Origin: a virus
Reading direction: 5' to 3' (one strand)
IMG/VR virus record: IMGVR_UViG_3300025769_000007
Span: 1 to 61,274 of that record
Length of the DNA: 61,274 nt
In this document: positions 6,057 to 58,063 of the stretch, in pieces
Position numbering within the stretch: position 1 is the first letter of the stretch
Layout of the letters: the number at the start of each line of letters is the position of its first letter
Made by a program: the position numbers and the translations under genes
The notes under the pieces: model-generated
What the model was told of the DNA's origin: nothing
What the model saw: only the letters and a program-made list of their open reading frames with translations
Databases searched by the model: none

Positions 6057-6539
6057 ATGAAAAAGTACGTTTTTTATGTTTTTTATTTTGGATTATTGGT
6101 TAATCAAAAATCGTATTCACAAACAGATTCTGATAAAGTTTTAAAAGACCTGTCTAAAGATTACATTAACTACCTTGAGTCTGAAGGCTTTCGCCCAAAG
6201 ATTGATGATGTAGGTGATGTAAGCTTTAAGTTTGAGGGGTCAACGTTTTGGGTCATGCCTTACTACTCTGATTTTTTTTCTTTGAGTAGATTTTTATCTC
6301 TTGATGAAAATCAAAAGTGCACAAAAGGTCTTATGAATATGATTAATGATTTTAATTTCGATAGAGTTAGCGATGCAGCTCGTGTTTACGATAATTGTAA
6401 AACAATTGAAATAAGATCTACAAGCCACTTGCCAAATAAAAATGATTGGAAGTATATTTTTGAACCCTCTGTGATTTGGTTGAACAACTCTTCAATTGAT
6501 TTCTCAGAAAAGTATAGGGAGTTCTTAGATAAAAACTAA
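6057..6539 (+). CDS. Secreted/periplasmic protein, YbjN-like fold possible (moron candidate)
   Basis: The 160-residue product begins with a Sec signal peptide (MKKYVFYVFYFGLLVNQKSY, cleavage likely before QTDSD), so it acts outside the cytoplasm. The mature part has the pattern YLESEGFRPKIDDVGDVSF followed by FEGSTFWVM, resembling the YbjN / secretion-chaperone-like fold seen in small Bacteroidota proteins; this is a tentative impression. It is flanked by a terminator upstream and an A-rich gap downstream, sitting alone between replication genes. That is the typical arrangement of a moron acquired from a host. Function unknown. Confidence 0.7.
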   Translation: MKKYVFYVFYFGLLVNQKSYSQTDSDKVLKDLSKDYINYLESEGFRPKIDDVGDVSFKFEGSTFWVMPYYSDFFSLSRFLSLDENQKCTKGLMNMINDFNFDRVSDAARVYDNCKTIEIRSTSHLPNKNDWKYIFEPSVIWLNNSSIDFSEKYREFLDKN

Positions 6540-18700: not shown

Positions 18701-20615
18701 CATAAACTAAATCATCTATAGCCTGTCGAGCCACATCACTTACAGAGTAGTCTACCTTAAGTTTACCATCTCTAATTTGTTGAGCTACTTCTGGATCTTT
18801 AGCAAGGTTAATAGCCTCACCTCTAGACACCTCTCTTGTTTCACCCTTTTCGTTTGTAAAGATTACAGAGGTGTTGTCGTTGATTATGTTTAGATTTCTG
18901 CTAATATCTTTAGCACCCCTAACTGTGGTATAAGTAAGTCCACCAAATAGAGATGATATAATGGCTGTATCTACCATCCTAATAGCAAACTCTCCAGAGT
19001 CGAACTCTTCTAACCCTACAGCCGCATCAGATAGATACTGAGAACCTTCTGTTGCTACCTCAGAAGATGTTTCTATAAACATAGATTTTTTAATACCTTG
19101 GAAGTAACTATCAAGTAAAATATTAGGATCTGTAATAGCTTTAAAACCACCAGCAGTTCTAGCAGAGTTTATAATTCCTTGGGTGTACTTTTCAAAGAAA
19201 GCCTCTGAAACAGCAGTAACACCTTCACTAAAGTGTATTTGCCAATCCTTTATATCTTCACCTTTTCTTCTTCTTTCTTTAAGTTCTAAAGATTTCATAC
19301 CTCCAGCTGAGGCACCACCAAGTATAAGGGGAACTGTTCCTCCACCTGCCAAGGCTATAGATAAAGTAAAAGGAACTGCGTTAGCAATACCATTACCTGT
19401 ATTAAAGAAAGCGTCATCAAAGTTGCCGTCAAATATAGCCTTTGTAATAGATGACTCTTCAGGTATTCTAGTCTTCTCTCTTATATGCTCAGCGTAATCG
19501 CTAACCTTATTAGCATAGTATCCACCCTCTTGCATATATAAATCCCAGGCAGATAAATCTTCAAACTCTTCTGAATCAGCTAAAGGAGACGGTTTCATCC
19601 CTAAGGCTGCAGGAGCTTTCTCTAACTGCTCAAGAGCCCCAGCACCTAAATCTATAGTTGTAGCTAAAAGATTCTGCCCCCAATCACCAAACCTTCCTCC
19701 AGAATCTATCTGTCTATTCATAAAGTCTTCAACGTACTTTATAGCCTCGTAGCTTGGGTCACTTGGATCTGGAACTCTTATACTAAAGTTTACGCTTTCC
19801 CCATCTTGGGCAGCGTTAACATTATCAGTCTTCATCCAATAGTCTAAAGCTTCGTTAATAGAAGCTTCTTTGCCATCTATAGTCATGGCAGACATTCTTA
19901 TATTGTTTGAGTCTATATCTGAATCTTCTAAGGCTTTAGAAAATTCTTCAGGTGATTGAGATGATTTAGCTATGGATTGAAACAAAGCGTTATCATACTC
20001 TGTCTTTGCAGCTTTAATCTTTTCTTCGTTACCAGATAGGTATAGTTTTGAAGTAGCGTCTTTCTCAGCTAGTTCGGTTTGTTCTTGGTTGTATTCTGAC
20101 CAATTAGAAAACCTGTCGTACCACTTCTCAGCCCAAGAGGCTTGATTATCTTTCTCTTCTTGAGTCTTTTTTGTTGACTCAACCTCTTCCTCTTTATTTT
20201 TTGCTGATAAAAAGTCATCGTAATTTAAACCCTGATCTTCAAAGAAAGGTCTTTGGTCTTCTTGTCTAGCTATCTTTATCTTATCCTCGTTGGAAACACC
20301 ATCATAACTAGCTAATCTTTCTTCTAAACTAAGCTGAACGTCTTGTTCCAAAGAAGATTGACCATCTTCCGATACTGATGGAGACACCCCTGAATCCACT
20401 TGGGCACTCGCACCTTGAGGCATAGAAGAATCTTTTTTTTTTAACCTAGACTCGTATTGCTCATAGTCACCAAGGTCTATGCCTTTACCAGAAACAGTAT
20501 CGTAAAAACTTTTACGCATATCTTCTGTTTCCATTTTAGCAGAAAAGTCATCAAATGAACCAACATCAAACTTAGTTGAAATTGCTTCGTATAGTTTTTT
20601 TAAATCGTCATTCAT
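12783..20615 (-). CDS. Giant polyvalent internal virion protein with metalloprotease motif
   Basis: The product has about 2610 residues. ATG 20615 overlaps the upstream stop as TAATG; ATG 20621 is also possible. It is a multidomain protein of the kind carried inside phage heads and ejected with DNA. Visible parts: charged coiled-coil segments (N-terminal 200 residues and about 650-720); hydrophobic segments (about 405-435, FTLSIALAGGGTVPLILGG, and near 550) that could insert into a membrane; a zincin motif TLFHEIIHPMVDF near residue 1207; and a C-terminal region with TVWNPGTHFKNIIGNS near 2080, resembling large polyvalent protein domains. It is the last gene of the late arm and shares its operon with two other internal-type proteins. 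The enzymatic role is inferred from motifs. Confidence 0.75.
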   Translation of the reverse strand: MNDDLKKLYEAISTKFDVGSFDDFSAKMETEDMRKSFYDTVSGKGIDLGDYEQYESRLKKKDSSMPQGASAQVDSGVSPSVSEDGQSSLEQDVQLSLEERLASYDGVSNEDKIKIARQEDQRPFFEDQGLNYDDFLSAKNKEEEVESTKKTQEEKDNQASWAEKWYDRFSNWSEYNQEQTELAEKDATSKLYLSGNEEKIKAAKTEYDNALFQSIAKSSQSPEEFSKALEDSDIDSNNIRMSAMTIDGKEASINEALDYWMKTDNVNAAQDGESVNFSIRVPDPSDPSYEAIKYVEDFMNRQIDSGGRFGDWGQNLLATTIDLGAGALEQLEKAPAALGMKPSPLADSEEFEDLSAWDLYMQEGGYYANKVSDYAEHIREKTRIPEESSITKAIFDGNFDDAFFNTGNGIANAVPFTLSIALAGGGTVPLILGGASAGGMKSLELKERRRKGEDIKDWQIHFSEGVTAVSEAFFEKYTQGIINSARTAGGFKAITDPNILLDSYFQGIKKSMFIETSSEVATEGSQYLSDAAVGLEEFDSGEFAIRMVDTAIISSLFGGLTYTTVRGAKDISRNLNIINDNTSVIFTNEKGETREVSRGEAINLAKDPEVAQQIRDGKLKVDYSVSDVARQAIDDLVYGHSAPDAQQAKAKMFEKEKAVSSLSRKINQAKEDAKAKKEDYEVSMEDVSSLASAISEMEAEGKKSKYNVTESTRAARAESKKILDDNNIEIVDAVESQNTSVSKVTETVDATKIDSQEQYDAVKKQLEDGKRKPTVVQSQNQSGIKVNGEVSQTSEITQGKFKSVSAARNAMKDFEVANKASKKEVAEQEFTSDELAQDDSIIRTEYYTITDGDGNSQTVEVKTSKDGSKRVELKDEEGTRYSSEKFSKDNPASNEQLIDGLHPFAEDEGYSLNKREKETREGFEANYSESIVENRKAKLRAERPKSTTGSGSFPINNKLFLKTKKETLDEIPQEVIDNNDYHVLTSEKEGLTEQERVSRMESLKSMLDEAGATYYTVQGVYNGVAEESLVVTGIDNATALNIGNQFQQESIFSSKDGLMFGDGRVVPLNGDVAKGVDARKRDALTIMNVAGEKTSIHTGLEWANTSYGKNFNSDNIHKLDESDPNHDSEVFQGLTKDRKRVLGFAFKLLSSIGGLNVTVVRNSKAMEEQLKTIGQDPSKKMSSFFRGSNKTIYVNLETVQGNTLFHEIIHPMVDFIKKTDPALYERIEAEVKESGVKRRVMKDGNRMKGSYLEWAEANYEGLSEEGLIEEAFAEMMGDAAYGHFVNSQSKLSRIREVIKAMLSRLGITSPFDNVEAIDLNQMSLSNLRTDLAEALVNGRKINVGGVEFEVGDIQADKDKVNESIKFQVDKLENNSDLGVVNINIPDNTQTQEIRFQAPEFYPNFDVSKVKRGSIKEFNGQKALLMLTDRSASGMVVSPTGVKHEFDGGVFYPYQEDTGVWAFSDKAAATRMINAAKESDGLVFLTAMAPGSIDGSVNMFDYVMKELDQAIKDKRATKKEVVDFLNKKMTIKSFDSKAKDQGIKTSKIKSVKEFSNLVLSMPQAFGVRKDIIRKSIQSKIFEKWGIPSMKEIYNTVNQDIIKDLKGNPIVSAIRIDVDAGYVDSRLDDKIKDHPTYPYVVKGEPLMIFDESVDASEVWDELNLADKFLIDSRTGEKLSEGTTQARRQRKIEMARPVVDIRMQAPQAEGETNVYTSGLTTIAFDIADKVIEADYKAGKYLTGKLSKAGFDKGKEYEIRLSQLLGKPFGTHSNEEIKEIMVLSRGNLNAELLRVSENSKALKKALEGTDFTSGQINDLLHNMDEIRSMEDSEIKSILMDMRIHIDQLSRTLIEEEMIEGSTMFTVDENMGVYVRRSYKQFEVKGWEQTDNDIIKKAKEFLYREVESQNKKDVEEGRLDENGEPITLMSKDKIKDKAEVNYRKITEDKEFLYNMKNSTSLDGLNRVSSIFKEKKVIPEEIRELWGQIDNPLFNYSNTVSKLARTVSAERMFREIYDVGNGKFISNEQTSDTYYELKGSKFGSLEGKFVDEEMFAVMNQVSDGFDSKWWYNFYMKVVLFNKKMKTVWNPGTHFKNIIGNSAFATMNGHIGFRGGMYKDSKTSFNAVRGLKDAELEALYSKLVKLGVVNSSASLQEIRGIANDVYDSNFDLSEYLDESKGYVGKQIAKVGRGSKKLIKLFDDKAMSAYQAEDDIWKIFGFISEKARYIKAGLDVSTAEEMAAKNIRNLYPNYNEVPRIIRLLGRSPLVGSFVAFQAESVRNAKNTLALGFEEMGSDNSKIKKIGATRIAGTIFTMYLMESIQLYTAQFLGQMIGLGGEDDEKIEERMMRTLMPEWDASGNISYISKGELDSRQTEGQTQKDKYFDYINFSSISGVGYTKDIMRIMFNDLNTKIGKESMMDVLEKVYAPFLGEEMTLKVLRDAINNDGNKVFNPTDKPHMQIASVMSYVGNKIGPGALKTGKRIYDSMDRDSEMVPEYEVLAFFGLRVSRVNVNKNMSIQAYYVYKDMIDRVGYEVLKDQDMLMNTSNSGGSTYDSKMDNYVNRLVDVYGAGILNSIEGDDILAIFRNSRISEEVIKLVDQRAKSRYQEDYINVEAK

Positions 20616-22111
20616 TACCATTCAAGTTTTTCTGGAGCCCCACCACCTTGTTGAGATGATTCTAAATTAGAGTATTCTATTATTTTAGCACCTGTACTTC
20701 CCTTCTCAAATTTATTCTTAAATAAAGAAGAGTCTAGCCTACCTAAAGGAACTAAGAATGAAGATCCTTTGTATTCCATTACAGCTACAGGCTTATTATC
20801 CTCAGTTAAAGCAATTCTTTGAAGATTAGCTTCAATACTATCTGAGTCAGAGTCGTACCAGTTCTTGTTATATAAGAACGTTCCTGTAGTTTCTTTGTCC
20901 CCAACATTCTGACCTTCAACACCTTGTAAATCTTCTAAAAATACTGAAACTTTAGTTACATCTCTTACGACAGCACTCTTATTATCATCAAGTTTAACTG
21001 AAATATTATTTATGTTTTTAAGTTGTTCTGACGGACTCTCTAGTAAAGATATAGAATCCTTAGATAAGACTTCTTCTTCTGCCTTTTTAGTTGAAGGTTT
21101 AGAACCTCTTCGAGGGCCTCTGTTTTCGTACTCTCTATCAGAAATCTTTTTACCTAAATACTCAGCGTACTGGTCAGATAACTCTTTATTAAAGTTTTCA
21201 CTTTGAGGATCTAACTGTCCAATTAACTCTTCATCAGGGGATGTAATACCACCAACAACAGAGTCATTATTTGGATTAATATAAGCTTCTAAGAAAAAAG
21301 CCTCCTTACCAGTCATAGATTCTCCGTTTACGATAAGTTGCTCAGTATTATATATCCTTTCAGCGTTTTTATCATCATGCCTATTATAAGCATTCACCTT
21401 TAACTTTGTAGTTATTTTATCTGTAGTCTGAGATTTTTGATCGTCTGATATACTTAAGTATTCCCAACCATCTTTTCCTATAGCTTTTCCTTCACGATTT
21501 TTATCATCTTTCTCGAAGTAATCGTCTTTAGACATATAAAAGGGAACAAACTCACTCTCGTTAACCATAGACTGAGAGTCTATAGGATAAGCCTCTAAAG
21601 CTTGATCTAAGTCCATCTCACCGCTATTTACAGCCTCTTGAACTTGACTCCAGTTGTACTTATAAAGGTACTCACCATCTTCAGTCAACTTAAGGTTATC
21701 AGCCTTTCCTGCAGTAACAAGATTATTTAAAGATGTTAAGTCATTACTTATGCTGTCATACTTAGATTTATTAGCAGTAAGATCTCTTTCTAGGCTTAGT
21801 TGTTGATTTTTAGCCTCGTTATCTCCATCATATATGGCCATAGCTTTTTCATTGGCAAAACCTTGGTATTCACCAACTTGCGATTGAAACTGATCAACCA
21901 AGAAAGGATCCATTCCTTCTACAGAATAATCTTTTATTTGAGCTTTAGAACCTTTTCTTCTAGCTTCTTTCTTTTTATCAGCAAGTTGTTGCTTCCTAAG
22001 TTCCAACTCTTCTTTTTGAATAGCGAGTTGCTGCCTAGTAGCCTCTTCTTTTAAAAGATCACGATTGTTTTTAAAAACTGTACCTGTGAAAAATAAACCT
22101 TCTCCAGCCAT
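20615..22111 (-). CDS. Putative internal virion protein, 498 residues
   Basis: The N-terminal 90 residues form a basic coiled coil (QQLAIQKEELELRKQQLADK). The rest is acidic and polar, with no signal peptide or transmembrane segment. It sits between the 419-residue membrane-active-like protein and the giant polyvalent protein, coupled to the latter by a TAATG overlap. This position corresponds to internal core or cargo genes of short-tailed phages. No specific family is recognised. Confidence 0.6.
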   Translation of the reverse strand: MAGEGLFFTGTVFKNNRDLLKEEATRQQLAIQKEELELRKQQLADKKKEARRKGSKAQIKDYSVEGMDPFLVDQFQSQVGEYQGFANEKAMAIYDGDNEAKNQQLSLERDLTANKSKYDSISNDLTSLNNLVTAGKADNLKLTEDGEYLYKYNWSQVQEAVNSGEMDLDQALEAYPIDSQSMVNESEFVPFYMSKDDYFEKDDKNREGKAIGKDGWEYLSISDDQKSQTTDKITTKLKVNAYNRHDDKNAERIYNTEQLIVNGESMTGKEAFFLEAYINPNNDSVVGGITSPDEELIGQLDPQSENFNKELSDQYAEYLGKKISDREYENRGPRRGSKPSTKKAEEEVLSKDSISLLESPSEQLKNINNISVKLDDNKSAVVRDVTKVSVFLEDLQGVEGQNVGDKETTGTFLYNKNWYDSDSDSIEANLQRIALTEDNKPVAVMEYKGSSFLVPLGRLDSSLFKNKFEKGSTGAKIIEYSNLESSQQGGGAPEKLEW

Positions 22112-39366: not shown

Positions 39367-41766
39367 CTATTGAGGTATGTTTTGATTCTCACCTAAAGGA
39401 CCTCTATTGCCTTGTCTCTGTTCAATCATCTGAGATTGATTCATAGCAGACTGCTCTTGGACAGCTTTACGAACCTCTCCCTGAATAGACGCAGCACCCT
39501 CTTTACCAAGGTTACTAAGCTCTATTTCCCTCAACCTTCTTTGATGCTGAGATTGTTCAAACTGTTCTTTTAACTGAAACTCTAATTGTTTAAGTTGCAT
39601 ATCAGCTTGAACTTTAGCTTGAACACGAGCCTGTTCTATCTGCATCTCAGTCTGCAACTCTTGTTGCTTTAGCTGTGCAGCTTGTTGAGCAGACTGCTGT
39701 TGTAGTTCAGCGTTTTGCTTAGAAGCTTCTTGTGCTTGCAATTGCTGCTCTTCTTGATATTTCTTCCTTCTTAAAACAAGCATTTGATTAGCCATCTTAA
39801 TATTCTTAATAGATCTAATCATAATGGCATCTTCTAATCTAATTTCTTTCTGAGCTATAGATGCTTGTATATTCTGCTCCATCATCTGCTTCTCTTCCTC
39901 GCTAGGTGCAACATCTAGTGTTATACCAAACTCGTGAATAGAAAGCTTCTTCATCATATCTATAGAGTACATTGCAGTATCACCTATAACGTTAGCATAC
40001 ATCTTATGTAACCCTTTAAAGTTTACTAAATCTTGCATACGAACAGTTATGCTTTGAGAAACTCTTGTTGTAACGTTAAGATAAGCATCGTTAATATCTC
40101 TAGTAGCATTGTTAGATGCTAATAGAGATAGTTTTTGAACTCCTACCAAAGCTTCGCTAGATGGCTTAGAAGCGTCTCTAGATTCGTTTACACCAGTCAC
40201 ATCACGAATCATTTGCATGTTGTGATTATAAACACCTATAAGAGTGTTAAAATCACGACCTATACCATTCTCTAACTCCTGAATTGGCATAGCCCCAGTC
40301 ATCTGACCTTCATCATCTATACGTCTGTAATATATATTACCAGTTTGATCGTATATCTCTTGAAGCTCCATAGGCGTAAATGTACCACCATCACCTTTTG
40401 AAACGTTTTCCAAAGAACCTATTTCAAAAGCCGCACCCTTTGGTCTAGCTTTAGCTAAAGTATGTTGTATTTTAAGGTGAGCTAATTGTATTTGGTCAGC
40501 AAAAGGAATCATTCTATCTACTAAAGAACGACTCTTCATTTTGTATAAGTTTGGTTGATACACTATATAAGACAACCTTGTTTCAGATAAGTTAGACTTA
40601 GCCCTAGGCATATCTTGCATCATGCCATAATTAAATATATAATCTGTTCCTACAATGTACTTACCCTTGTATATAACCTTTACTGTTTGACCTATATCTT
40701 CTCTCTTTGTTTTAGAGTTTTTAGGTTTTTTATAATTAGAAGGTTTTTTGTTTACAGAGTAACCACCAAATCTATTTTCTTTCTTCTCATATTTTAAAGA
40801 GTGACTTGTAATAAACTCAGCATCTAATATATTAACACTAAACTTATCGTAGTCATAAGTCTCGTTACCATTCTCGTAATAAGCTTGAGTGCCATAATTT
40901 GCTGGGTTATTATTTTTTCCAGCATACTCTCTAGCTATTTTAATATAATCCTCTTCACTAAACTCATCTCCAGCTTGCATTTTTAAGTCAGCAATAGTGA
41001 TAGAATAAACCTCACCTGCGTGTCTTATATTTTTAAAGTCTGGTTTAGCAGAAAAAGAAGTTATAAGGTTTACGGGGTCAACGTGACGTATCTTAACACC
41101 TTCTGTTTTTGAAATTTCTGTTTTAGCAGCACATAAACCTAAAACAACAAGATCACGAATCATATATCGTTTAACCTCGTCATAGTCGTTAATATCTAAA
41201 GTGTACTCTATTGCTTTCTCTAAAGCTATTTCTACATTTTGCTTATAATTAAGTGCCATAAACATTTCAACTTCTTCAGAGCTTTCAGCAACAAACTCTT
41301 TAGGAGCTAAAGGTAAACCAGTTTCATCCTCTAAGTTTTGTAAGAAATCTTTAGTTAACATGTTGCCATACAACTGCTTTTTCTTTTCCATTCTTTCGTT
41401 AGCAGCAACAGGATCTATAGTTTTAGCTTTTATATCATAGTCTTGATTAACCATTCCGTTAACAATAACGTCAACAAACTTAGGTATAACAGATACAGGG
41501 CTCCAGTCTATATTTAAATAAGAAGAATCCCCTTGAACATCAAGAAGGTCTTTATATTTACCTACATCTTGGTTTCCCTCAGCGTAAGATCTGTTACGAT
41601 TATATCGCATCTTACGATCTCTAAAATATACGTCACCATTATTATGCCACTCGTAGTACATGTTTTTAAAGTACTCAAGTCCATACTCTTTAGTAGCTTT
41701 TTCTTCGTTAGTTGCTAAAGGTGATGGATAACCATTTAATTTGTTTTTATTATTACCGTAAGTCAT
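39367..41766 (-). CDS. Portal protein
   Basis: The 799-residue protein directly follows the terminase gene with a 4-base overlap and precedes scaffold and capsid genes, the classical portal position. Portal-like traits are an N-terminal region with RDRKMRYNRNRSYAEGNQD, a beta-rich wing, the segment PFADQIQLAHLKIQHTLAK that would form the clip/stem helices, and a long Gln-rich C-terminal coiled coil (residues about 675-750). The C-terminal barrel-like coiled coil suggests a podovirus-like portal. It would form the dodecameric ring for DNA entry and exit. Confidence 0.8.
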   Translation of the reverse strand: MTYGNNKNKLNGYPSPLATNEEKATKEYGLEYFKNMYYEWHNNGDVYFRDRKMRYNRNRSYAEGNQDVGKYKDLLDVQGDSSYLNIDWSPVSVIPKFVDVIVNGMVNQDYDIKAKTIDPVAANERMEKKKQLYGNMLTKDFLQNLEDETGLPLAPKEFVAESSEEVEMFMALNYKQNVEIALEKAIEYTLDINDYDEVKRYMIRDLVVLGLCAAKTEISKTEGVKIRHVDPVNLITSFSAKPDFKNIRHAGEVYSITIADLKMQAGDEFSEEDYIKIAREYAGKNNNPANYGTQAYYENGNETYDYDKFSVNILDAEFITSHSLKYEKKENRFGGYSVNKKPSNYKKPKNSKTKREDIGQTVKVIYKGKYIVGTDYIFNYGMMQDMPRAKSNLSETRLSYIVYQPNLYKMKSRSLVDRMIPFADQIQLAHLKIQHTLAKARPKGAAFEIGSLENVSKGDGGTFTPMELQEIYDQTGNIYYRRIDDEGQMTGAMPIQELENGIGRDFNTLIGVYNHNMQMIRDVTGVNESRDASKPSSEALVGVQKLSLLASNNATRDINDAYLNVTTRVSQSITVRMQDLVNFKGLHKMYANVIGDTAMYSIDMMKKLSIHEFGITLDVAPSEEEKQMMEQNIQASIAQKEIRLEDAIMIRSIKNIKMANQMLVLRRKKYQEEQQLQAQEASKQNAELQQQSAQQAAQLKQQELQTEMQIEQARVQAKVQADMQLKQLEFQLKEQFEQSQHQRRLREIELSNLGKEGAASIQGEVRKAVQEQSAMNQSQMIEQRQGNRGPLGENQNIPQ

Positions 41767-43856
41767 GATTTTATTTGTTTGCTAAACATTCCTTTGTTAC
41801 TATATCTTTTAACTAAAGGAGATGACACCTTTAATTCTTTTTTAGGTTTTATATATTTCTGTGACGCTAGTAAAGCCAATGAAGACGATATACTAGCATC
41901 ATACTTTGTTCTATTATCTATCTCGAACCTACTCCAATCATCAAGAAGCGTATTAAAAAAACATCTACCAATCTCTCCAGTCTCTGCGTTATACCCTACA
42001 TGATCATATATATATGTTGCTATAGCCTCTGCTTGAGCATTTATAACTGCAGCACCTGATCCAGGTATACCTTTAGTCTTTTGTTTTCCTCTACTCCACT
42101 CTGTGTGAGTCATATCTGGTCTATCCATCAAGTACTCATAGTATCCTCTGTTTTCAAAATACTTTAGTATTCCCACCTTATTATTCTCTACCAATATCTG
42201 ACAGCCATAGAATACGCACATCTTAATCATATCCTCGTAAAATATTTCTGCTTTAGGAGGTCTATTAATGTACTCACATACAAACTGCATAGACGCATCA
42301 CTTGACATGCTAAACTTATGAAATACATGAGCAGCAGCATCAGACCTTCTACCATCGGTAGTCGTATCATGATCGTAAGGGTCACAGCCTGCAACAAGTT
42401 GATCTGATCTACCAGGAAACTTTTTATTAAATCTAGACGATACAACGTTTTGATTCTGAGCCTCTGGAACCCAAGTGATTTCCCACTTACCCTTTCTGTG
42501 AGGTATCCATATAACCTCGCTATCCTGTACGCCATTTTTCCAAACAAACTCACCCCTTGTTGTAGGAGTATTATTAACTTCGTTGTAATCCATTTGTTGA
42601 TAAATTCTCTCGACATCAAATATACAACTTTGTGTATCATTTCTAAATGCCTCTTCTATAGTAAACGGAAACTGACGCTTAAACTCTGATAACGCTGTTG
42701 TATCATTCTTTAAAGCATCCCTTCTGTTTTGTATATAATCTTTAGCACCAGTATCAACAAGCATATCATCAATCCCCATTACAGGAGTCTTTGGAGTATC
42801 TACAACACTATAACCATACTCGTCAATAAATCCCTCTAGGTTATCAAACGCAGGTATAAATAACTTATACAAACCGCTCTTTGTCCTACCATTGAGATCT
42901 TTCTCTCCCATATCAGAGTTGTAGAATATATCTTTAAACTCTGCACCACCATCCTGTTGTTTATTAGCAGTGGAACCCATCATACACTTTCCAACAACCT
43001 TTCTACCCAGTAGTAAACAAGTTTGAGTTACACCCCAGTTTTTCTTAATAGAGTTTTGCCCTGTCCACTTACCAGCCTCATCATGTATAAGAAGTTTAAG
43101 CTTCATACCATCATAGCTGTTGTCTGCTGTGTTTCTCCAATCTATTATAGAATTTAAAGCTTCAGACTTTTCTATATGCTTTTGATTCTTAGTAATCTTT
43201 TTAGCTGGCTCTCTAAACGCTAGCTCTACACGAGGATTACTAGAACCATCCTGTATAGGTTGAAAGAAGAAAGGGTAGTTTCTATATATACGAACTACTT
43301 TGTCAGTAAACATAGTCTTAGCATCAGCTCCAGTTTTAGAAAGCAAACCAAAGTTACTATCGTAAATCTGTGTAGCCTGATTAACTATCTCACTACTAGC
43401 CATATAAGAAAAACCACTACGTCTGTTCTTAAGAAAACACATTCCGTAAGAGTTCTTGTCGTTTTTACACGCTTCCCAAAAAATAAAGAACGTTCTGTTA
43501 GCATCCCTATAATCAGGATAACCAACATCTATTTTACTCCACTGGATAAACATATAATGAGATCCAGTAATATAAGTAGGGATGCCATTGTTGTAAAACC
43601 ACAATCCTTCTCTTCTACGTCTAAACTCCTCTTCTATGTAGTCTACATAATCTGTAGCATTATCCCTTGTTAAACCCTTTGGTATATCCTCTCTAGTCCA
43701 CTTTTGTTTTTTCTTAGGGAGGTTATGATATAGTATATCTTTTTTATATCTAGGCTTTTTAGGTAGAACTATCTTTAAGTTATCAAACTCTAAGATCTCT
43801 CCTTCGTTACCCTCTATTAGATATATAGTATCACTTTTTTGCATACCGTTCAGCAA
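41763..43856 (-). CDS. terL: Terminase large subunit
   Basis: The 697-residue protein shows both terminase domains. In the ATPase part there is a degenerate Walker A (LKNRRSGFSYMASSE, near residues 140-155), Walker B with catalytic Glu (LLIHDEAGKW, near 256) and the coupling motif MMGSTANKQQDGGAEF. In the RNase H-like nuclease part there is AGCDPYDHDTTTDGRR (near 489) with its acidic residues and later ILVENNKVG. It pumps DNA into the prohead and cuts it. It overlaps the portal gene by 4 bases and the upstream small gene by 26 bases. Confidence 0.88.
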   Translation of the reverse strand: MLNGMQKSDTIYLIEGNEGEILEFDNLKIVLPKKPRYKKDILYHNLPKKKQKWTREDIPKGLTRDNATDYVDYIEEEFRRRREGLWFYNNGIPTYITGSHYMFIQWSKIDVGYPDYRDANRTFFIFWEACKNDKNSYGMCFLKNRRSGFSYMASSEIVNQATQIYDSNFGLLSKTGADAKTMFTDKVVRIYRNYPFFFQPIQDGSSNPRVELAFREPAKKITKNQKHIEKSEALNSIIDWRNTADNSYDGMKLKLLIHDEAGKWTGQNSIKKNWGVTQTCLLLGRKVVGKCMMGSTANKQQDGGAEFKDIFYNSDMGEKDLNGRTKSGLYKLFIPAFDNLEGFIDEYGYSVVDTPKTPVMGIDDMLVDTGAKDYIQNRRDALKNDTTALSEFKRQFPFTIEEAFRNDTQSCIFDVERIYQQMDYNEVNNTPTTRGEFVWKNGVQDSEVIWIPHRKGKWEITWVPEAQNQNVVSSRFNKKFPGRSDQLVAGCDPYDHDTTTDGRRSDAAAHVFHKFSMSSDASMQFVCEYINRPPKAEIFYEDMIKMCVFYGCQILVENNKVGILKYFENRGYYEYLMDRPDMTHTEWSRGKQKTKGIPGSGAAVINAQAEAIATYIYDHVGYNAETGEIGRCFFNTLLDDWSRFEIDNRTKYDASISSSLALLASQKYIKPKKELKVSSPLVKRYSNKGMFSKQIKS

Positions 43857-46565: not shown

Positions 46566-46952
46566 TTATTTTTTTCTTATTTTCTCTATAGACCTACCTG
46601 CAAAGTAAGCTCCATATACTGTTATTAATAATGTTTGATATATAGGTATATAACTCTCCTGAATAGCAAACTCCCCTATATTACCGTCAAACACTGACAA
46701 AACTACAAAAATTGCAGTTAAAAATATACATATCAAAGGTCTAATGTTCTTAGATAGCCAGTTATCAGACTTCATGTCGGCCTCCCAACGTCTAGTAACT
46801 TGTTCTTGTGCTTGAGATTCAGCTTGCATAAGAACTTCTTCCATTTTACGCTTTGCTTCTAATCTCTCCTCTTCAGAAGTGCTAAGATTATCTATTACAT
46901 CACCGACTTGTTTAACAACACCACCACCTAAAAAATTTAGTAACTTACTCAT
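46566..46952 (-). CDS. Holin, three-TM / GTA-holin-like
   Basis: The 128-residue product has a helical N-terminal part and coiled coil, then the motif SDNWLSKNIRPLICIFLTAI (residues about 62-81) beginning the membrane part, and a further hydrophobic segment (YQTLLITVYGAYFAGRSIEK). WLxKxxRP followed by membrane spans is characteristic of the GTA_holin_3TM family. It lies immediately downstream of the endolysin gene (two-base gap). It would permeabilise the inner membrane for lysis. Confidence 0.75.
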   Translation of the reverse strand: MSKLLNFLGGGVVKQVGDVIDNLSTSEEERLEAKRKMEEVLMQAESQAQEQVTRRWEADMKSDNWLSKNIRPLICIFLTAIFVVLSVFDGNIGEFAIQESYIPIYQTLLITVYGAYFAGRSIEKIRKK

Positions 46953-46954
46953 AT

Positions 46955-47404
46955 CTATACTAATCTGTAAGCAGTGTCCCCTTCATCATCTTTGTACGCT
47001 TCTAAAATCTGCTTTCTATTACTATTCTTTTTTAAGGATATGTGTATCCAGGAGAAGTCAAACTCGTTTATCATCTGATCAAATTCTAACCCTGACTCTA
47101 TAATCCAATCATAAATAACTTTGTTATTCATTTTTCCTTTTTCCCAAAACTGGAGATCCAAAGCTTCAGCTTTGCTATGCTGGCTACGAGATGAACCGCC
47201 AATTGCACGATTAAGTGACGGGGAACGATAACCACTACTAATCCTAACAGGACCAATAGCGTCACGAAGAGGCTGTATAAGATTATCAATGAGCCTTTGC
47301 ATGTTTTCCAAGTGTTTCTCCGACATCTCATTGTTTATACCTAATCTTTTTGCTGTGTTACTGTGTTCTATCTCTGCACGAGAGAAATTTTTACTTAGTT
47401 TCAT
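46955..47404 (-). CDS. Endolysin, peptidase M15 (D,D-/L,D-peptidase type)
   Basis: The 149-residue product is a peptidase M15-family enzyme. SSGYRSPSLNRAIGGSSRSQ then HSKAEALDLQF (residues about 57-86) provides the Zn-binding His and Asp, and WIHISLKK near residue 123 provides the second His. Such enzymes cleave peptide cross-links in peptidoglycan. There is no signal peptide, so export would depend on the adjacent holin gene. Family length is typical. Confidence 0.88.
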   Translation of the reverse strand: MKLSKNFSRAEIEHSNTAKRLGINNEMSEKHLENMQRLIDNLIQPLRDAIGPVRISSGYRSPSLNRAIGGSSRSQHSKAEALDLQFWEKGKMNNKVIYDWIIESGLEFDQMINEFDFSWIHISLKKNSNRKQILEAYKDDEGDTAYRLV

Positions 47405-47413
47405 AATTTAAAT

Positions 47414-47752
47414 TTAAAACGCTTCCATGACTATTTCATCTATAGAGTTTTGAACCTCCTTAAGGGTTGCTTCCATAGTCATCATAATATTTGCTTGAAA
47501 TCTTTTTACTTCTTCGTTATTATTAAATATAACAATAGTAGGAACAACCACTATTTTATATTCTTTAGACCATCTTGAATCTGCAGCTATATCAACTCTT
47601 TGAATTTCACAGTCTGATAGTTTTGATAACCAAGCCACTTCGTTAGCTTTATTAAAACTAGCATTAAACTCAACAGCAACCATTCCGTCAGAAAAATCTT
47701 GACCGTATATTGTTGATGTCAGAATAAAAAATATAATTAAAAAGTTTTTCAT
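47414..47752 (-). CDS. Secreted thioredoxin-fold protein lacking the CXXC motif
   Basis: A signal peptide (MKNFLIIFFILTSTIYGQ) is followed by a thioredoxin-like pattern. The strand VAVEFNASFNKANEVAWLSK occupies the place where CxxC is expected but has no Cys there; IQRVDIAADSRWSKEYKIVV and the conserved cis-Pro motif VVPTIVIFNNNEEVKRF follow. It has a single Cys (DCEIQ). It therefore probably has a thioredoxin fold without disulphide redox activity, perhaps a periplasmic chaperone or decoy. It lies next to the endolysin and surface-protein genes. Confidence 0.7.
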   Translation of the reverse strand: MKNFLIIFFILTSTIYGQDFSDGMVAVEFNASFNKANEVAWLSKLSDCEIQRVDIAADSRWSKEYKIVVVPTIVIFNNNEEVKRFQANIMMTMEATLKEVQNSIDEIVMEAF

Positions 47753-47756
47753 AAGA

Positions 47757-48041
47757 TTACCTTAACTTATCAATCTTCTCCTCCATTCTAATCATTTGAC
47801 TCTTAATGTCTTTAACGTCATCCTGAGTTGACATAATTGTTTGTCTAATAAGTTGATCTTTCATATCATACTCCATACGAGTAATTTCTGGATCAGGAGG
47901 AAGAGGTAATTTTTTAGCCTCTGCTATATCTGCTTGCAGTACAAACCAACCACTAATTACTGCAGCCATTACAAAACCTATACCTGCTAAAGTCTTTAGA
48001 CTTATATTAAAAGACGTTTCTTCGCTTAGTTCTTTTGCCAT
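47757..48041 (-). CDS. Single-span membrane protein with coiled coil, 94 residues
   Basis: A hydrophobic segment (LAGIGFVMAAVISGWFVLQA, residues about 18-37) is followed by PLPPDPEITRMEYDMKDQ and a C-terminal coiled coil. Topology and location between lysis genes and outer-membrane genes suit a spanin-like or holin-accessory protein, but no specific motif confirms this. Confidence 0.6.
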   Translation of the reverse strand: MAKELSEETSFNISLKTLAGIGFVMAAVISGWFVLQADIAEAKKLPLPPDPEITRMEYDMKDQLIRQTIMSTQDDVKDIKSQMIRMEEKIDKLR

Positions 48042-48043
48042 TT

Positions 48044-49141
48044 TTAGAATATTACATAATTAAGGCCAACGCTAAAGTTGTGCCACTGTCTGTTCCAATA
48101 CTTATTGTATCTTCCTTCCACAAATATACCAAAACTTTTATTAAATCTATAACCATAAATTAAACCTAAAGAATAGTCAACCCATTGACCTTCATTAAAC
48201 TTATGATAAGAGTAAGTATTCTTAGTGTCTAAGTGGTATGGCATAACATTACCCCAAGTGTGAAACCAGAAGTCTTTTGTGAAATGATAATAGTCCATAC
48301 CCACAACAAAAGAATACTCAACTATATTAGATATAGAGTTTCTTTGTTTTTCTACATAATTATTTATAACTTGTGGTATAACAACTTCTTCCCACACTTC
48401 TTGACTGCTGGCTACAAGAGTTCCATCAGGCGAAAAGTACTCTCCCCCTAGGGTGATGTTGTACCCCTCTTGAAGAGCAAGGTATGTATAATGAAGAGTT
48501 CCATTATCTAATACCCAGTCTTCTAAAGGATTAAAGCCATAAGGTTCGGCAAGTCTTTGTACTAAACCCCCATTTAATGAAAGCTTACCGCTCCTTATCT
48601 TTAATCTAAATCTTTCTGATGCTTCAAAATATTTTATATCTGCAAAACCATCCTCAAGGTACTCTACTTTACTCACCCATTTATCTGCAACATATCTTAC
48701 AAAGTGATGATGATTAGTGTAGTTTACCCCTAAACGTCTTACAAAATCAGCCTCGAACAAATATTCAAAACCATCAACTCTACCAATGGTTGCGGCATCA
48801 GAATAAGAGTTTTCCGTACCATTATAAAAAGTGTTGGCTCTGTTCTCATATCCGAATCTTTTAATCTTTCTAATACCAATAGATATATTATAATCAAATG
48901 GTGTTTTAATAGTTTCTTCTTCTAAAGATCCAGATGTTACAGACCATATTTGATCATCACCTAATGATGTACCACCATTAACTGCAGCGTAAAATGTAGA
49001 GTATTTAAATATTTTATGTAAATCTTGAGCTTTACAAGACGGAGCAAATAATCCAAAAAACACAACATAAAATAAAACTAGTATTACCCAAAATAACAAA
49101 TACCCAACATCAGGTGTAAAAAATTCTTTTAATCTTTTCAT
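48044..49141 (-). CDS. Predicted outer-membrane beta-barrel protein
   Basis: The 365-residue product has an N-terminal hydrophobic export segment (about residues 14-37, ending PSCKAQ, probable cleavage before DLHK). The mature part is dominated by short amphipathic strands rich in Tyr, Phe, Trp, Gly and Asn, and its end, WHNFSVGLNYVIF, has an aromatic terminal residue as recognised by the BAM machinery. Strand pairs such as VDYSLGLIYGYRFNKSFGIF support a porin-like barrel. Its start overlaps the stop of the T9SS repeat protein gene by 4 bases (ATGA), so the two are co-translated. The barrel could sit in the host outer membrane and alter receptors or partner the exported protein. Confidence 0.7.
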   Translation of the reverse strand: MKRLKEFFTPDVGYLLFWVILVLFYVVFFGLFAPSCKAQDLHKIFKYSTFYAAVNGGTSLGDDQIWSVTSGSLEEETIKTPFDYNISIGIRKIKRFGYENRANTFYNGTENSYSDAATIGRVDGFEYLFEADFVRRLGVNYTNHHHFVRYVADKWVSKVEYLEDGFADIKYFEASERFRLKIRSGKLSLNGGLVQRLAEPYGFNPLEDWVLDNGTLHYTYLALQEGYNITLGGEYFSPDGTLVASSQEVWEEVVIPQVINNYVEKQRNSISNIVEYSFVVGMDYYHFTKDFWFHTWGNVMPYHLDTKNTYSYHKFNEGQWVDYSLGLIYGYRFNKSFGIFVEGRYNKYWNRQWHNFSVGLNYVIF

Positions 49142-52100
49142 TTCTTTAATATGCTTTTAGTAGTAGTTACACCATCATATGTTACACTAAAATAATACAC
49201 TCCTGAATTTAATAAACTCATGTTTAATTGATTTAAACCTTTTTTAGTATATCTTTCTTTTACGTGTATTACTACTTTACCTGCTGAGTCATAAACAACA
49301 ACCTCTACCTTTCCGTTAGTTAGTATATTTATATAGTCAGTTACGGGAACAGGATACATAACTACGTTATGTCCTCTCAATAAATCTCTAGTATCTAATG
49401 GGCTATCCCAGCTACAGCTCCAGTATAATTCTTGACATTTATCGTCCCACTCATTATTACAACAATAAGGATCTACCATTAAAACCCAAGCGTAACATGT
49501 GTCATTCAACCAATATGGATTACCAGGACCATCAACACAACCTGCGTCATACAAACAACTACCATCCTCTGTATTAGAAAACTCGCTATAATTATGTGCC
49601 ATCTGATCCATACATCCTTCTATAATGTCTATACAAGCATCATTATCTGTGTTAGCTGTTTCGTCATAATTAAACGACTCTGGATTAGTGCATCCTAATA
49701 CAATATCAATACAAGAGAAGTCCTCTGTGTTAGCGTTTACACTATAATTAAACGCTGCAGGATCTGTACAACCATAGACTACTTCAATACAAGATTGGTT
49801 GTCTGCATTTGCAAGAACATCGTAATTAAAAGCAGTAGAGTCCATACACCCATATATAGGAAGGATACAAGTATTATCGTCAGTATTTGCTTCAGCGTTG
49901 TAATTTAAAGCGTTAGGATCATCGCATCCATATATAAATGATACGCAAGATTGATTATCGCTATTTGCAAGTGGATTGTAGTTATACATTGTATTGTCTG
50001 TACAACCGTATATAGGTGTAATACAAGACCCGTCATCCAGGTTAGCATCTAAAATATAATTTAAAGCTATAGGATTTGTACACCCATAAACTATTCCTTC
50101 ACAACTCTGATTATCAGTGTTAGCTAACGGGTTATAATTATAAGCTGAAGAATCAGTACAACCGTATATTATATTTATACAAGAACCATCATCAGTATTT
50201 GCGTCCTGATTGTAGTTCAAAGATTGAGGGTTTATGCATCCGTAAATATATTCTAAACAGGTTCCGTTATCTGAGTTAGAAAGAGGATCATAATTAAATG
50301 CAGTAGAATCACCGCACCCAAATACAAAAGAAATACAATTATTGCTTTCTGTGTTTGCTTCTTCATTATAGTTATACATTGTTGCGTCCATACATCCAAT
50401 AACAACTTCTACGCATAACCCGTTATCTGTATTTGCTGCTATATTAAAATTAAACATGCTTGGATCCGTACAACCTTCTATAACATCAACGCAACTTTCA
50501 TCGTCTGTATTAGCTAAAGGTTCATAATTAAAAGATGCCTCGTTAGTGCATCCATACACGTATGGTATACAATCATCGCTACTATCTGTAGCCTCAGGCA
50601 TAAAGTTAATTGATAAAGGATTAGTGCAACCAACAACTTCAAGTTCATCACAAACTTCATCTAAATCAATATCATTAAGACAATCTCCGTTACAATCTTC
50701 GTAAACTTCTACTGGATAAAAACAACCACCATTGTCTGCGTTAGCTTCTTGGTCATAATTACAAGCCTCAGAATCAGTACATCCTAAATAAATACAATTG
50801 CCATCGTCTATATTAGATTCTGCATTATAGTTCCAAGCCTGGTTGTCCATGCAACCATAAACTATAGCTTCACAACTTTCATCATCAACATTAGCTTCTG
50901 CATTATAGTTAAACGCTAAATCGTTTGTACAACCTAATACAATATCAATACATTCTTCAGATTGAGTGTTAGCAAGAGAATCGTAATTTAAAGCAAAAGG
51001 ATCTAAACAACCTTCTACAACTGGAATACAATAATCTCCACAATATGGCATAACACTATATACATGCCAAAAAGGAGCTTGATAAGCTTTTAATATTCCC
51101 GCCCCATTATTCATAAAAGGATTAGTTCCCGCTTGTATTGTTGTAACACCATTAGAGTTTATTAGTCTAAAAGAATTGTGCATTGTTTGGAACTCTACTT
51201 CAGCTTGAGGCTGCTGAGGCTTCCCTATCTCGAAATAATAAATATCTATAGGTTTATCAGTAGATAAAGTTATTTCAAACTCTTGATAGTATTCTCCTGC
51301 TACCACAGTATAAGTTCCTATAGATACACCACCCTGAACTAAACCTATATAGGAGTCTCCCCATCCATCACCTGCATCATCCTCTATAATTAAAGTGTAA
51401 TCACAAGATGGGATTATATCATTTAATGTAGCCTCAGGATTGTAATTAAATGAAGATGGATTTAAGCAACCTAAAGTGTGTGGGTTTGTACAACTTCCAT
51501 CATCTACATCTGCAAAAGGATTATACTCTATATAGTCAGGATCCATGCAGCCATAAACTACAGGTATAGGGCAGTTTTCTAATTGTATAACTCCTGAGTA
51601 TGCTGCGTTACCAAAACCTGCATCAGGTAAAGACCATAAAGTATCTAAAACCCCGCAAGGTTCTAAGTCACCTAAAATAACAAAGTTACCATCTACACCT
51701 CCGCTATATAACGACCCTTGCATACCGTCACCGTATGTATCACTTATTATAAGTTCCACACCAAATTCTGGAGCACACAAACTATAAGATATTGTAGTAT
51801 TTGCTTGATTGTAATTATAAGTGTTGCCTAGAACACTTTCTACTGGTTGTCCTGTAGATATATCAGTAAGAATCCACCCAGTTTCGTTTGGATATTGATC
51901 TAGAGTAACTTCTAAAATCATTCTAGCCTCACCATCGCTACACTCTGTATTTATACAGCTACCATTGTCAACCTGCGCCCAAGGGTTATAATTGTTAGCA
52001 TCTTGATCTGTACAACCCAATACTGGAAACTGACAAGAATTATTATCAACATTGGCTAGAGAGTCGTAATTAAGAGCTAAGGGATCTACACAACCTAACA

Positions 52101-52326
52101 CTGTGTCTATTGGTGCTTCACAGTCACCTGCGTCATAACCAAATTCTTCACAATTAAAATCTATAGGGTTACCATTCCATGTATACGAACCATCGTCACA
52201 AAAACCATCACTTAACCAGTTTTCTGGAGATGGTGTTCCAAAACAGTCAACAAATGTGCTGTCTTGAGAAAATGAGTTAATAGTAATAAATAATAGTAGG
52301 TAACTTAATTTCTTTAACACTTCCAT
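49138..52326 (-). CDS. Large secreted Cys-repeat protein with T9SS sorting domain
   Basis: The 1062-residue product has a signal peptide (MEVLKKLSYLLLFITINSFS). A Notch/LNR-like Cys module follows (about 26-70, DGFCDDGSYTW, then YDAGDC). About 22 copies of a roughly 26-residue repeat come next: GC(T/M)DP, Ala, then Asn-Tyr, Ala-Asn, then DDGSC, mostly between 438 and 925. Two beta domains with DTYGDGMQG (about 210) and DDAGDGWGD (about 315) interrupt the repeats. The last 75 residues (VVMYPVPVTDYINILTNGKV to SGVYYFSVTYDGVTTTKSIL) are a type A T9SS C-terminal sorting domain. The host type IX system would export it to the cell surface. It overlaps its neighbours (13 and 4 bases) and so belongs to the late operon. 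Confidence 0.88.
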   Translation of the reverse strand: MEVLKKLSYLLLFITINSFSQDSTFVDCFGTPSPENWLSDGFCDDGSYTWNGNPIDFNCEEFGYDAGDCEAPIDTVLGCVDPLALNYDSLANVDNNSCQFPVLGCTDQDANNYNPWAQVDNGSCINTECSDGEARMILEVTLDQYPNETGWILTDISTGQPVESVLGNTYNYNQANTTISYSLCAPEFGVELIISDTYGDGMQGSLYSGGVDGNFVILGDLEPCGVLDTLWSLPDAGFGNAAYSGVIQLENCPIPVVYGCMDPDYIEYNPFADVDDGSCTNPHTLGCLNPSSFNYNPEATLNDIIPSCDYTLIIEDDAGDGWGDSYIGLVQGGVSIGTYTVVAGEYYQEFEITLSTDKPIDIYYFEIGKPQQPQAEVEFQTMHNSFRLINSNGVTTIQAGTNPFMNNGAGILKAYQAPFWHVYSVMPYCGDYCIPVVEGCLDPFALNYDSLANTQSEECIDIVLGCTNDLAFNYNAEANVDDESCEAIVYGCMDNQAWNYNAESNIDDGNCIYLGCTDSEACNYDQEANADNGGCFYPVEVYEDCNGDCLNDIDLDEVCDELEVVGCTNPLSINFMPEATDSSDDCIPYVYGCTNEASFNYEPLANTDDESCVDVIEGCTDPSMFNFNIAANTDNGLCVEVVIGCMDATMYNYNEEANTESNNCISFVFGCGDSTAFNYDPLSNSDNGTCLEYIYGCINPQSLNYNQDANTDDGSCINIIYGCTDSSAYNYNPLANTDNQSCEGIVYGCTNPIALNYILDANLDDGSCITPIYGCTDNTMYNYNPLANSDNQSCVSFIYGCDDPNALNYNAEANTDDNTCILPIYGCMDSTAFNYDVLANADNQSCIEVVYGCTDPAAFNYSVNANTEDFSCIDIVLGCTNPESFNYDETANTDNDACIDIIEGCMDQMAHNYSEFSNTEDGSCLYDAGCVDGPGNPYWLNDTCYAWVLMVDPYCCNNEWDDKCQELYWSCSWDSPLDTRDLLRGHNVVMYPVPVTDYINILTNGKVEVVVYDSAGKVVIHVKERYTKKGLNQLNMSLLNSGVYYFSVTYDGVTTTKSILKK

Positions 52327-52847
52327 CGTCTTCGTGCTTGTCGGATTCTTGAATTAGGATCGTTTTGAGTCTTTTGACTGCTACGTTTTAATTGACCTAG
52401 TGATCTAGCACAATAAGATTTACGTCTTTTAGCTGCTTTACTACCAGGCTTTACTTTACCAGTTACTGCAGTTTTAAGCTTGCTACCAGGGTTTGCACGT
52501 CTGTAAGCCTTAACACCTTTCTGTGTCATACCTGCACCAGACTTAGTAGGCCTAAAGTTACCAGACTTAATACTAGTCTTTATGCCCATACCTTTTTTAG
52601 CTTTCTTTACTGCTTTCACTTTTTTATATCTAGATACTCTGCCTTTAGTGTTCTTTTCTATTTGAGCTCTACGTTTCTCTCCAGGAGTGAGTTCACTCCA
52701 AGTAGTAGGCGTATCTTTTGTTATTCTTTTAGTAGGGCGAAAAGTATTTTCTCCACCCTCGTAACCTTTTTTGCCTTTAGGTGTACGCCAGTCTTCTTTG
52801 AACCAGCGTTTAAGTCGTAAACCTGCTGCTGTCTTTCTAACTGCCAT
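52314..52847 (-). CDS. Lys/Arg-rich protein with C-terminal phage motif, 177 residues
   Basis: The product is extremely basic and low in hydrophobics. Its C-terminal 40 residues, KAAKRRKSYCARSLGQLKRS, then NDPNSRIRQARRRWKC, match a short motif (DUF6321-like) I recognise from virion-region proteins of many aquatic phages. It probably binds DNA or capsid interior. Start and stop overlap neighbouring genes (TAATG at 52847), so it is coupled to the next basic protein gene. Confidence 0.65.
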   Translation of the reverse strand: MAVRKTAAGLRLKRWFKEDWRTPKGKKGYEGGENTFRPTKRITKDTPTTWSELTPGEKRRAQIEKNTKGRVSRYKKVKAVKKAKKGMGIKTSIKSGNFRPTKSGAGMTQKGVKAYRRANPGSKLKTAVTGKVKPGSKAAKRRKSYCARSLGQLKRSSQKTQNDPNSRIRQARRRWKC

Positions 52848-57625: not shown

Positions 57626-58063
57626 ATGGCATTAGCAGATAAAAAACACTCAGCAGTACATACAAGAACAGGAGACGCTAAGACAGCTCTTAAAAATAAA
57701 TTTGATGAAGGTCATATAAATACTTTATTAGATTTAGCAGATAACGAAATTAATCCTGAGTTTGGGGCTTTAGTATATCAAATACAACAAATGCAAGATG
57801 AATTAGACGAACTTAGAAGACATCTTCTAAATGATGTTGTAGGGCAAAGAGGTCCTGCAGGTGCACAAGGACCACAAGGACCACAAGGACCAGCTGGTAG
57901 TAACGGTGCTGCAGGAGCTAAAGGAGACAAGGGAGATACTGGAGCAACAGGTCCTGCGGGTACAACAGATGCATCACAATTAGATGCAAGTAGACTTCCA
58001 ACAAGAAGACCATCAAGTAGAGGTTTGCTATGGAACGATAGAGGTATAGTAAAAGTATCTTAG
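57626..58063 (+). CDS. Collagen-like fibre protein, 145 residues
   Basis: An N-terminal helical domain (residues 1-70, ending in a coiled coil QMQDELDELRRHLL) precedes about 14 Gly-X-Y triplets (GPAGAQGPQGPQ onward, about 73-114). A short tail ends LLWNDRGIVKVS. Collagen-like triplets form rigid trimeric rods in phage fibres. Its place after the fibre gene suggests it is a virion spike or capsid fibre. Confidence 0.75.
   Translation: MALADKKHSAVHTRTGDAKTALKNKFDEGHINTLLDLADNEINPEFGALVYQIQQMQDELDELRRHLLNDVVGQRGPAGAQGPQGPQGPAGSNGAAGAKGDKGDTGATGPAGTTDASQLDASRLPTRRPSSRGLLWNDRGIVKVS

Follow-up and report, generated by a model that had tools for sequence, protein, structure and literature searches.

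Is the gene for a type IX secretion system (T9SS) cargo found among the late genes of this phage a lone captured gene, or does it belong to a function that phages maintain, and what might an infecting phage gain from exporting such a protein? The window, i.e. the whole 61,274-nucleotide stretch analysed (IMG/VR record IMGVR_UViG_3300025769_000007), comes from a marine phage. Profile searches identified a terminase, a portal, an SU10-like MCP, an M15 endolysin and a 3TM holin, which establish its phage nature and bear out the late phage operon in which the preliminary description had placed the cargo gene. The relevant features are:

52314..52847, minus strand: basic DUF6321/DUF5872 protein upstream of the cargo gene (Pfam scan)
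49138..52326, minus strand: T9SS cargo gene, Cys-repeat protein of 1062 aa (ORF list, translation, Pfam and NCBIfam profile scans)
52267..52326, minus strand: putative Sec signal peptide, aa 1–20, MEVLKKLSYLLLFITINSFS followed by Q (translation by eye; equivalent N-termini in relatives)
52117..52245, minus strand: N-terminal 4-Cys module, aa 28–70 (translation; conserved in close relatives)
49543..52095, minus strand: 22 Cys repeats, aa 78–928 (repeat count and consensus)
49402..49542, minus strand: C-terminal Cys module, GCVDGPGNPYWLNDTCYAWV..DPYCCNNEWDDKC..YWSC (translation; conserved in relatives)
49141..49359, minus strand: type A T9SS C-terminal sorting domain (CTD), aa 990–1062 (PF18962, TIGR04183)
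48044..49141, minus strand: predicted outer-membrane beta-barrel, 365 aa, 12 strands, with signal peptide and C-terminal F (structure prediction, fold and family searches)
47757..48041, minus strand: membrane/coil protein of 94 aa, with a coil and a single TM helix at its N-terminus (conserved together with the barrel)
47414..47752, minus strand: 112-aa predicted secreted thioredoxin-fold protein, CxxC lost (FNASFNKAN) (profile searches; co-conserved)
46955..47404, minus strand: M15 peptidase endolysin, adjoining the cassette (phrog_894, 3.2e-36; PF08291, 9.2e-16)
46566..46952, minus strand: 3TM holin (phrog_3427, 1.8e-29; PF11351, 4e-7)
41763..43856, minus strand: terminase large subunit (phrog_6681, 4e-166)

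The cargo ORF of 1062 residues was recovered as first described, reading from 52326 to 49138 on the minus strand. Its N-terminus, judged by eye, has clear n, h and c regions and an S-x-S site before Q, and the N-termini of its relatives are hydrophobic. The module that follows had been called LNR-like, a label that could not be kept, since it contains 4 Cys where 6 are needed and no Notch/LNR Pfam match was found at E<0.1. The repeats, estimated earlier at about 22 of the form GC(T/M)DP...NYN...DDGSC, number exactly 22, far above the count in shuffled sequences (mean 0.037, maximum 1). They have the consensus GCTDPxAxNYNxxANTDDGSC and a period of 26 aa, and the array is broken by two non-repeat inserts at about aa 130–258 and aa 310–438. 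Cys makes up 6.0% of the cargo, versus 0.36% of the other minus-strand (late) proteins of the window. Weak matches of the repeats to T4 Y03C and phrog_2192, which were marginal or below cut-off, were dismissed as matches of Cys pattern. A PDB sequence search with the cargo gave no match.

The sorting domain called in the preliminary description was recognised by both profiles above their curated cut-offs, PF18962 with E=7.5e-10 (39.4 bits, cut-off 27) and TIGR04183 with E=1.2e-8 (34.8 bits, cut-off 23). The CTD is preserved by almost all relatives, and together with the putative signal peptide across about 70 distinct loci, dN/dS is mostly low across the cargo, its CTD and the partner genes, indicating purifying selection, and two MAGs binned with related contigs contain PorV and PorP/SprF genes. 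The proposed use of the host T9SS is thus well supported at the sequence level by the retained CTD, purifying selection, Cys-richness, the putative signal peptide and the flavobacterial hosts of relatives, and the cargo is very likely exported by this route.

The cargo gene is no lone captured gene; it is the head of a conserved cassette, in which it is followed by genes for the outer-membrane beta-barrel, the membrane/coil protein and the thioredoxin-like protein lacking CxxC, next to those for endolysin and holin; these partners and their position had escaped the preliminary description. In the window the cargo stop and the barrel ORF share 4 nt (ATGA). Across 93 distinct loci the cargo gene lies directly 5' of the barrel gene in 71, with an overlap of exactly 4 nt in 66 of these. 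Of the 101 ORFs that immediately precede a barrel gene, duplicates and MAG contigs counted, 86 contain PF18962. Among 15 records without a recognised adjacent cargo, 6 PF18962 proteins were found, each carrying the repeats seen in the window cargo; 9 of the 15 records yielded no CTD protein, and many of these are fragments. Some phages hold the barrel gene away from the cargo gene. The cargo start is overlapped by 13 nt by the DUF6321/DUF5872 gene, an arrangement common to the closest relatives. Promoter and terminator scans gave nothing above chance.

The barrel structure was predicted with 12 strands (pLDDT 75, pTM 0.66), and its best PDB fold matches were outer-membrane barrels, albeit at low TM-scores of about 0.2–0.5. 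The fold, the signal peptide and the C-terminal aromatic residue are together those of a predicted outer-membrane barrel. The family was found in at least 580 IMG/VR stretches versus 6 contigs from 84,980 genomes, all 6 in MAGs, and is by this distribution virus-specific. Assignment to PorP/SprF (TIGR03519) was rejected, with no NCBIfam or Pfam match at E<0.1 and an hhalign probability of 9% contributed by the signal peptide only, as was assignment to PorV (NF033709), with no family match and an hhalign probability of 0.2%. CTD identity drops to 34% between phages whose barrels are still about 95% identical. CTD and barrel distances correlate at 0.82 over all loci, no more strongly than those of other cassette genes (barrel and thioredoxin-like, 0.90), and at only 0.39 within the close clade. 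Since sorting domains have been swapped at a constant barrel, a dedicated CTD shuttle is argued against, and recognition of the CTD by the barrel is unlikely.

The thioredoxin fold of the 112-aa protein was recognised by profile, with a match to a PDB thioredoxin at 2.9e-6; PF00085 matched it at 1.3e-4, just below the cut-off, and matched its counterpart in L108 at 5.7e-6, above the cut-off. The CxxC active site is missing in all aligned members, which have FNASFNKAN and similar sequences in its place. Because CxxC is absent, a role as disulfide catalyst for the Cys-rich cargo was rejected.

The hosts of relatives belong to Flavobacterium, Cellulophaga, Maribacter and Tenacibaculum (the first three being hosts of relatives by terminase), suggesting that the window phage also infects flavobacteria. 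The cassette is absent from 4 examined terminase relatives with Flavobacterium, Cellulophaga and Maribacter hosts, and a tblastn search of 50,697 cultured-phage records with the cargo, the CTD module, the barrel, a barrel consensus and a divergent barrel gave no relevant match. Because no integrase-sized unassigned ORF was seen in the window, a lytic role is favoured over lysogenic conversion.

The reading that we prefer, and consider about as likely as not, is that the cargo is a substrate of the host T9SS and that the conserved late cassette to which it belongs serves to remodel the envelope of the infected cell. The cargo would be made late, along with structural and lysis proteins, and would enter the periplasm through Sec; there, about 30 Cys pairs could become oxidised. 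The host T9SS would then recognise the type A CTD, carry the cargo across the outer membrane and cut off the CTD, so that the repeat protein ends up surface-bound or released; this export step is strongly supported by the sequence features described. Its partners would be spread over the envelope, the co-translated viral barrel occupying the outer membrane, the dead thioredoxin-like protein the periplasm and the coil protein the inner membrane. Export might benefit the phage by blocking re-adsorption or superinfection or by contributing to outer-membrane lysis. Most likely, a surface layer would keep other phages and the phage's own progeny off infected or lysed cells, protecting the phage's investment by blocking adsorption; the coating suggested earlier could serve such exclusion or aggregation of cells. 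T9SS-exported gliding adhesins may act as phage receptors in flavobacteria (PMC13288928), which would give a phage reason to alter the surface. The T9SS-tagged cargo and the hundreds of related viral contigs with the barrel suggest that these phages probably rebuild the infected cell surface shortly before lysis. A fuller version, which we advance tentatively and hold somewhat short of even, is that a widespread group of flavobacterial phages possesses a complete viral envelope-remodelling cassette, consisting of a T9SS-exported disulfide-repeat surface protein, a virus-only outer-membrane barrel, an inner-membrane coil and a dead periplasmic thioredoxin, which, just before lysis, assembles a new layer on the surface or a complex spanning the envelope; this would be a way of excluding superinfecting phages, or of lysing the outer membrane, that has not been described so far.

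The cassette could instead be lysis machinery, with the barrel, coil and thioredoxin-like proteins replacing spanins in bridging or disrupting the outer membrane, and the cargo contributing to weakening or shedding of the surface layer. Its genes are followed immediately by those for endolysin and holin in the window and in many relatives; in L108, which has an unrelated backbone, an amidase endolysin gene follows the thioredoxin-like gene instead; in ctfjg026 and phi38:1 one membrane-anchored protein fills the endolysin-adjacent place; and the barrel, coil and thioredoxin-like genes are retained more widely than the cargo gene. However, no spanin family match was found, a T9SS cargo co-translated with the barrel requires living secretion machinery, and lysis has no obvious need for 22 disulfide repeats; we consider this explanation unlikely, albeit the strongest competitor. 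A further possibility, improbable in our judgement, is that the cargo is paired with the barrel as its dedicated viral shuttle or anchor: in flavobacteria, Type B cargo genes are likewise followed by the gene of their SprF shuttle (PMC12618676, PMC9143113) and the 4-nt overlap is nearly constant, but the phage CTD is type A, a type served by PorV, neither family scans nor profile-profile comparison link the barrel to PorP/SprF or PorV, and CTDs change while the barrel does not.

Variation in the number of cargo repeats, from 5 to 23 across relatives, is adhesin-like, as are the modules in common with host surface proteins; as an adhesin, the cargo might aggregate infected cells or tie them to particles, raising the local host density for progeny. 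No ligand-binding domain was identified in the cargo, however, and an adhesin leaves unexplained the partner genes and their site beside the lysis genes, so that we find this idea doubtful, even slightly more so than a shuttle pair. The location of the gene inside a late structural operon would also suit an ordinary virion structural protein with a relic CTD, which is very hard to reconcile with a CTD and signal peptide maintained by purifying selection over so many loci, with a Cys content unlike that of other late proteins, and with a signal peptide that would take the protein away from the cytoplasmic site of assembly.

The cassette has partial precedents. Cryophage (2020) encodes proteins bearing type A T9SS sorting domains, for which host T9SS use was proposed (PMC7468147). 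It resembles the window phage in encoding type A CTD cargo and differs in that its three variable enzyme or PA14-domain genes lie in flexible islands of one phage (PMC7468147), whereas here, in many phages, a single Cys-repeat cargo has a conserved, co-translated viral barrel and two further partners. Gut crAss-BACON cluster 2 phages (2019), which also infect Bacteroidota, have T9SS sorting-domain proteins near head genes, with BACON repeats rather than Cys repeats, and the portions of that report consulted note no barrel partner (PMC6949934). Phage T9SS cargo was therefore already known; what appears to be new is its place in a conserved cassette that includes a viral barrel. This cassette suggests that a large, uncultured group of Bacteroidota phages has maintained the use of host T9SS, as opposed to one phage having captured an isolated gene, and brings to light hundreds of virus-only outer-membrane barrels that form a family without known function. 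How Bacteroidota phages change the host surface ahead of lysis, and possibly how they handle the outer membrane, thereby becomes testable.

SprB-SprF and PG1035-PorP, which are Type B cargo-shuttle pairs (PMC12618676, PMC9143113), likewise have an outer-membrane barrel gene directly 3' of the cargo gene; in contrast to these pairs, the phage CTD is type A and the phage barrel, with its 12 predicted strands, is unrelated in sequence and does not track the CTD. The barrel E1A206 of Aeromonas phage phiAS5 (BFVD) is also a phage-encoded outer-membrane barrel, with no clear sequence homology and, as far as seen, no tie to secretion cargo. Another BFVD entry, the phage protein A0A516LKJ4, matches the window barrel by fold with E 7e-23 at 20% identity. 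Flavobacterial hosts themselves have surface proteins with the same Cys repeats; two of these, L135 and L137, are encoded by cellular genes in genomes from which the barrel family is absent, and share with the phage cargo both the repeat type and, judged by eye, a CTD-like C-terminal domain.

The gene of main interest here encodes a 1062-aa protein (hereafter the cargo) with a signal peptide evident by eye, and is considered together with its two neighbours:

49138-52326, minus strand: cargo, a Cys-repeat protein
48044-49141, minus strand: 365-aa predicted outer-membrane beta-barrel protein (the barrel)
52314-52847, minus strand: very basic DUF6321/DUF5872 protein, overlapping the cargo start by 13 nt, whose domain matches several PHROGs of unknown function at their C-terminus

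The preliminary description had attributed to the cargo about 22 Cys repeats and a C-terminal type A sorting domain (CTD) of the type IX secretion system (T9SS), and both were borne out: a strict pattern counted 22 repeats (shuffles average 0.04), with a period of 26 aa and the consensus GCTDPxAxNYNxxANTDDGSC, and the CTD matched Pfam (7.5e-10) and NCBIfam (1.2e-8) profiles, each above the curated cut-off. The LNR label given to another module was not retained, as this module has only 4 Cys and a profile match is absent. Cys accounts for 6.0% of the cargo vs 0.36% of the remaining minus-strand proteins, a high content being expected if the cargo folds outside the cytoplasm. The phage context also held: the same strand encodes terminase, portal, an SU10-like capsid protein, GroES, an M15 endolysin and a 3TM holin, and the window is one single IMG/VR virus record. 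Full-length cargos contain 5 to 23 repeats in 654 to 1119 aa. A related Cys-repeat protein, encoded at L022:9569-12271 and in its near-copy L023:731-3433, has the C-terminal motif ITDILGRPVTGHKRQLLFYIYNDGSVDKKYMR, perhaps another sorting signal, in place of the type A CTD of the others.

Using the cargo as query against viral contigs, 25 loci were obtained, two of which (L016 and L026) were left out because the contig ends before the barrel position. A barrel homologue was the next gene after the cargo in 21 of the other 23 loci, and lies ~840 nt further downstream in L022 and L023. Downstream of the barrel there usually lie genes for a 94-aa protein with a single TM helix plus a coil, and for a secreted thioredoxin-like protein of 112 aa (Trx), completing what we term the cassette; in L107, a phage-like contig in a metagenome-assembled genome (MAG), the order is coil, Trx, small basic gene, cargo, barrel. 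A barrel-family scan gave at least 580 confirmed stretches among 600 examined. The cargo was directly 5' of the barrel in 71 of 93 distinct members, 66 of these 71 with an exact 4-nt overlap, while the remaining 22 had another gene directly 5' (15) or no ORF end within 60 nt (7). An independent count, including duplicate contigs and MAG loci, found PF18962 in 86/101 ORFs upstream of the barrel; 6 of 15 records without a recognised adjacent cargo encode a PF18962 protein, each with Cys repeats. Pairwise dN/dS was mostly 0.04–0.3 for cargo parts, barrel, coil, Trx and endolysin, with a few CTD values of 0.3–0.4 and one above 1 that rests on very few changes; saturation at synonymous sites makes some values unreliable. 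Seven loci (L083, L084, L089, L091, L094, L098 and L102) have the barrel apart from any cargo and directly 3' of a gene for a ~2,400–2,670-aa protein, perhaps the counterpart of the 2612-aa protein of the window (12783-20621).

The barrel has a signal peptide, present in two unrelated versions among members, most of which end in F. AlphaFold2 models reached pLDDT 65 with 15 sequences and pLDDT 75 (pTM 0.66, 12 strands) with 57. The best PDB fold matches were outer-membrane barrels (porins, autotransporter domains, OmpG, FapF); their TM-scores were low, about 0.2–0.5, so the model supports the class but not a nearest relative. The best viral fold match, the distant BFVD A0A516LKJ4 (E 7e-23, TM 0.55, 20% identity), may offer a route to a named phage that has a related system. 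In contigs of 84,980 genomes the family had 6 matches, all in MAGs or uncultured assemblies, and among 295 genomes of the class only one, the MAG of L108, whose contig on reading resembles a phage in its ribonucleotide-reductase-like, helicase-like and queuosine-type genes. The barrel family is essentially viral.

Type A CTDs are served by PorV. In Flavobacterium johnsoniae, a Type B cargo gene is commonly followed directly by a PorP/SprF-like shuttle-barrel gene (PMC12618676), and PorP/SprF bind their cargo and may anchor it (PMC9143113). The phage cassette has the same-looking layout; however, its CTD is type A, and family scans and profile comparison detected no homology of the barrel to PorP/SprF or PorV. 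At L008 and L055, barrel identity is as high as 95% and CTD identity only 34%; recognition of the CTD by the barrel is therefore improbable.

The cargo is very probably exported through the host T9SS. Late remodelling of the infected cell's envelope by the cargo together with its partners is, in our view, rather probable. Such remodelling might block adsorption of other phages or reduce the loss of progeny to debris, a tentative best guess suggested by the report that T9SS-exported gliding adhesins of flavobacteria may act as phage receptors (PMC13288928). The chief rival is a role of the cassette in lysis, which is favoured by its position next to the endolysin and holin genes and by retention of the barrel-coil-Trx core in more phages than the cargo. 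Phage-encoded T9SS cargo is already known, having been reported for Cryophage (PMC7468147) and noted for gut crAss-BACON phages (PMC6949934), whereas the cassette with the barrel had no earlier report in the literature searched, most subscription journals lying outside its coverage.

Terminase and portal relatives were Flavobacterium elemo phages, Cellulophaga phi38:1, Maribacter Panino, Tenacibaculum phages and the uncultured ctfjg026. The GroES-terminase-portal order of the window recurs in the four relatives' regions inspected (the GroES product of ctfjg026 being unannotated there), in which no barrel or thioredoxin-like homologue was found; on reading, the endolysin of phi38:1 and ctfjg026 is adjoined instead by a single membrane-anchored protein. 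Cargo-type repeats occurred in 3 of 149 host genomes (E<=1e-20), one being the phage-bearing MAG, and two of the other host repeat proteins have a C-terminal domain resembling a CTD, so the repeat type is common to phage cargo and cellular surface proteins. Two further genes of the window were noted:

6057-6539, plus strand, early region: 160-aa protein with a Bacteroidota-style signal peptide and no PHROG match below 0.01
57626-58063, plus strand, opposite to the late operon: collagen-like repeat protein (PF01391), adjoining probable fibre genes
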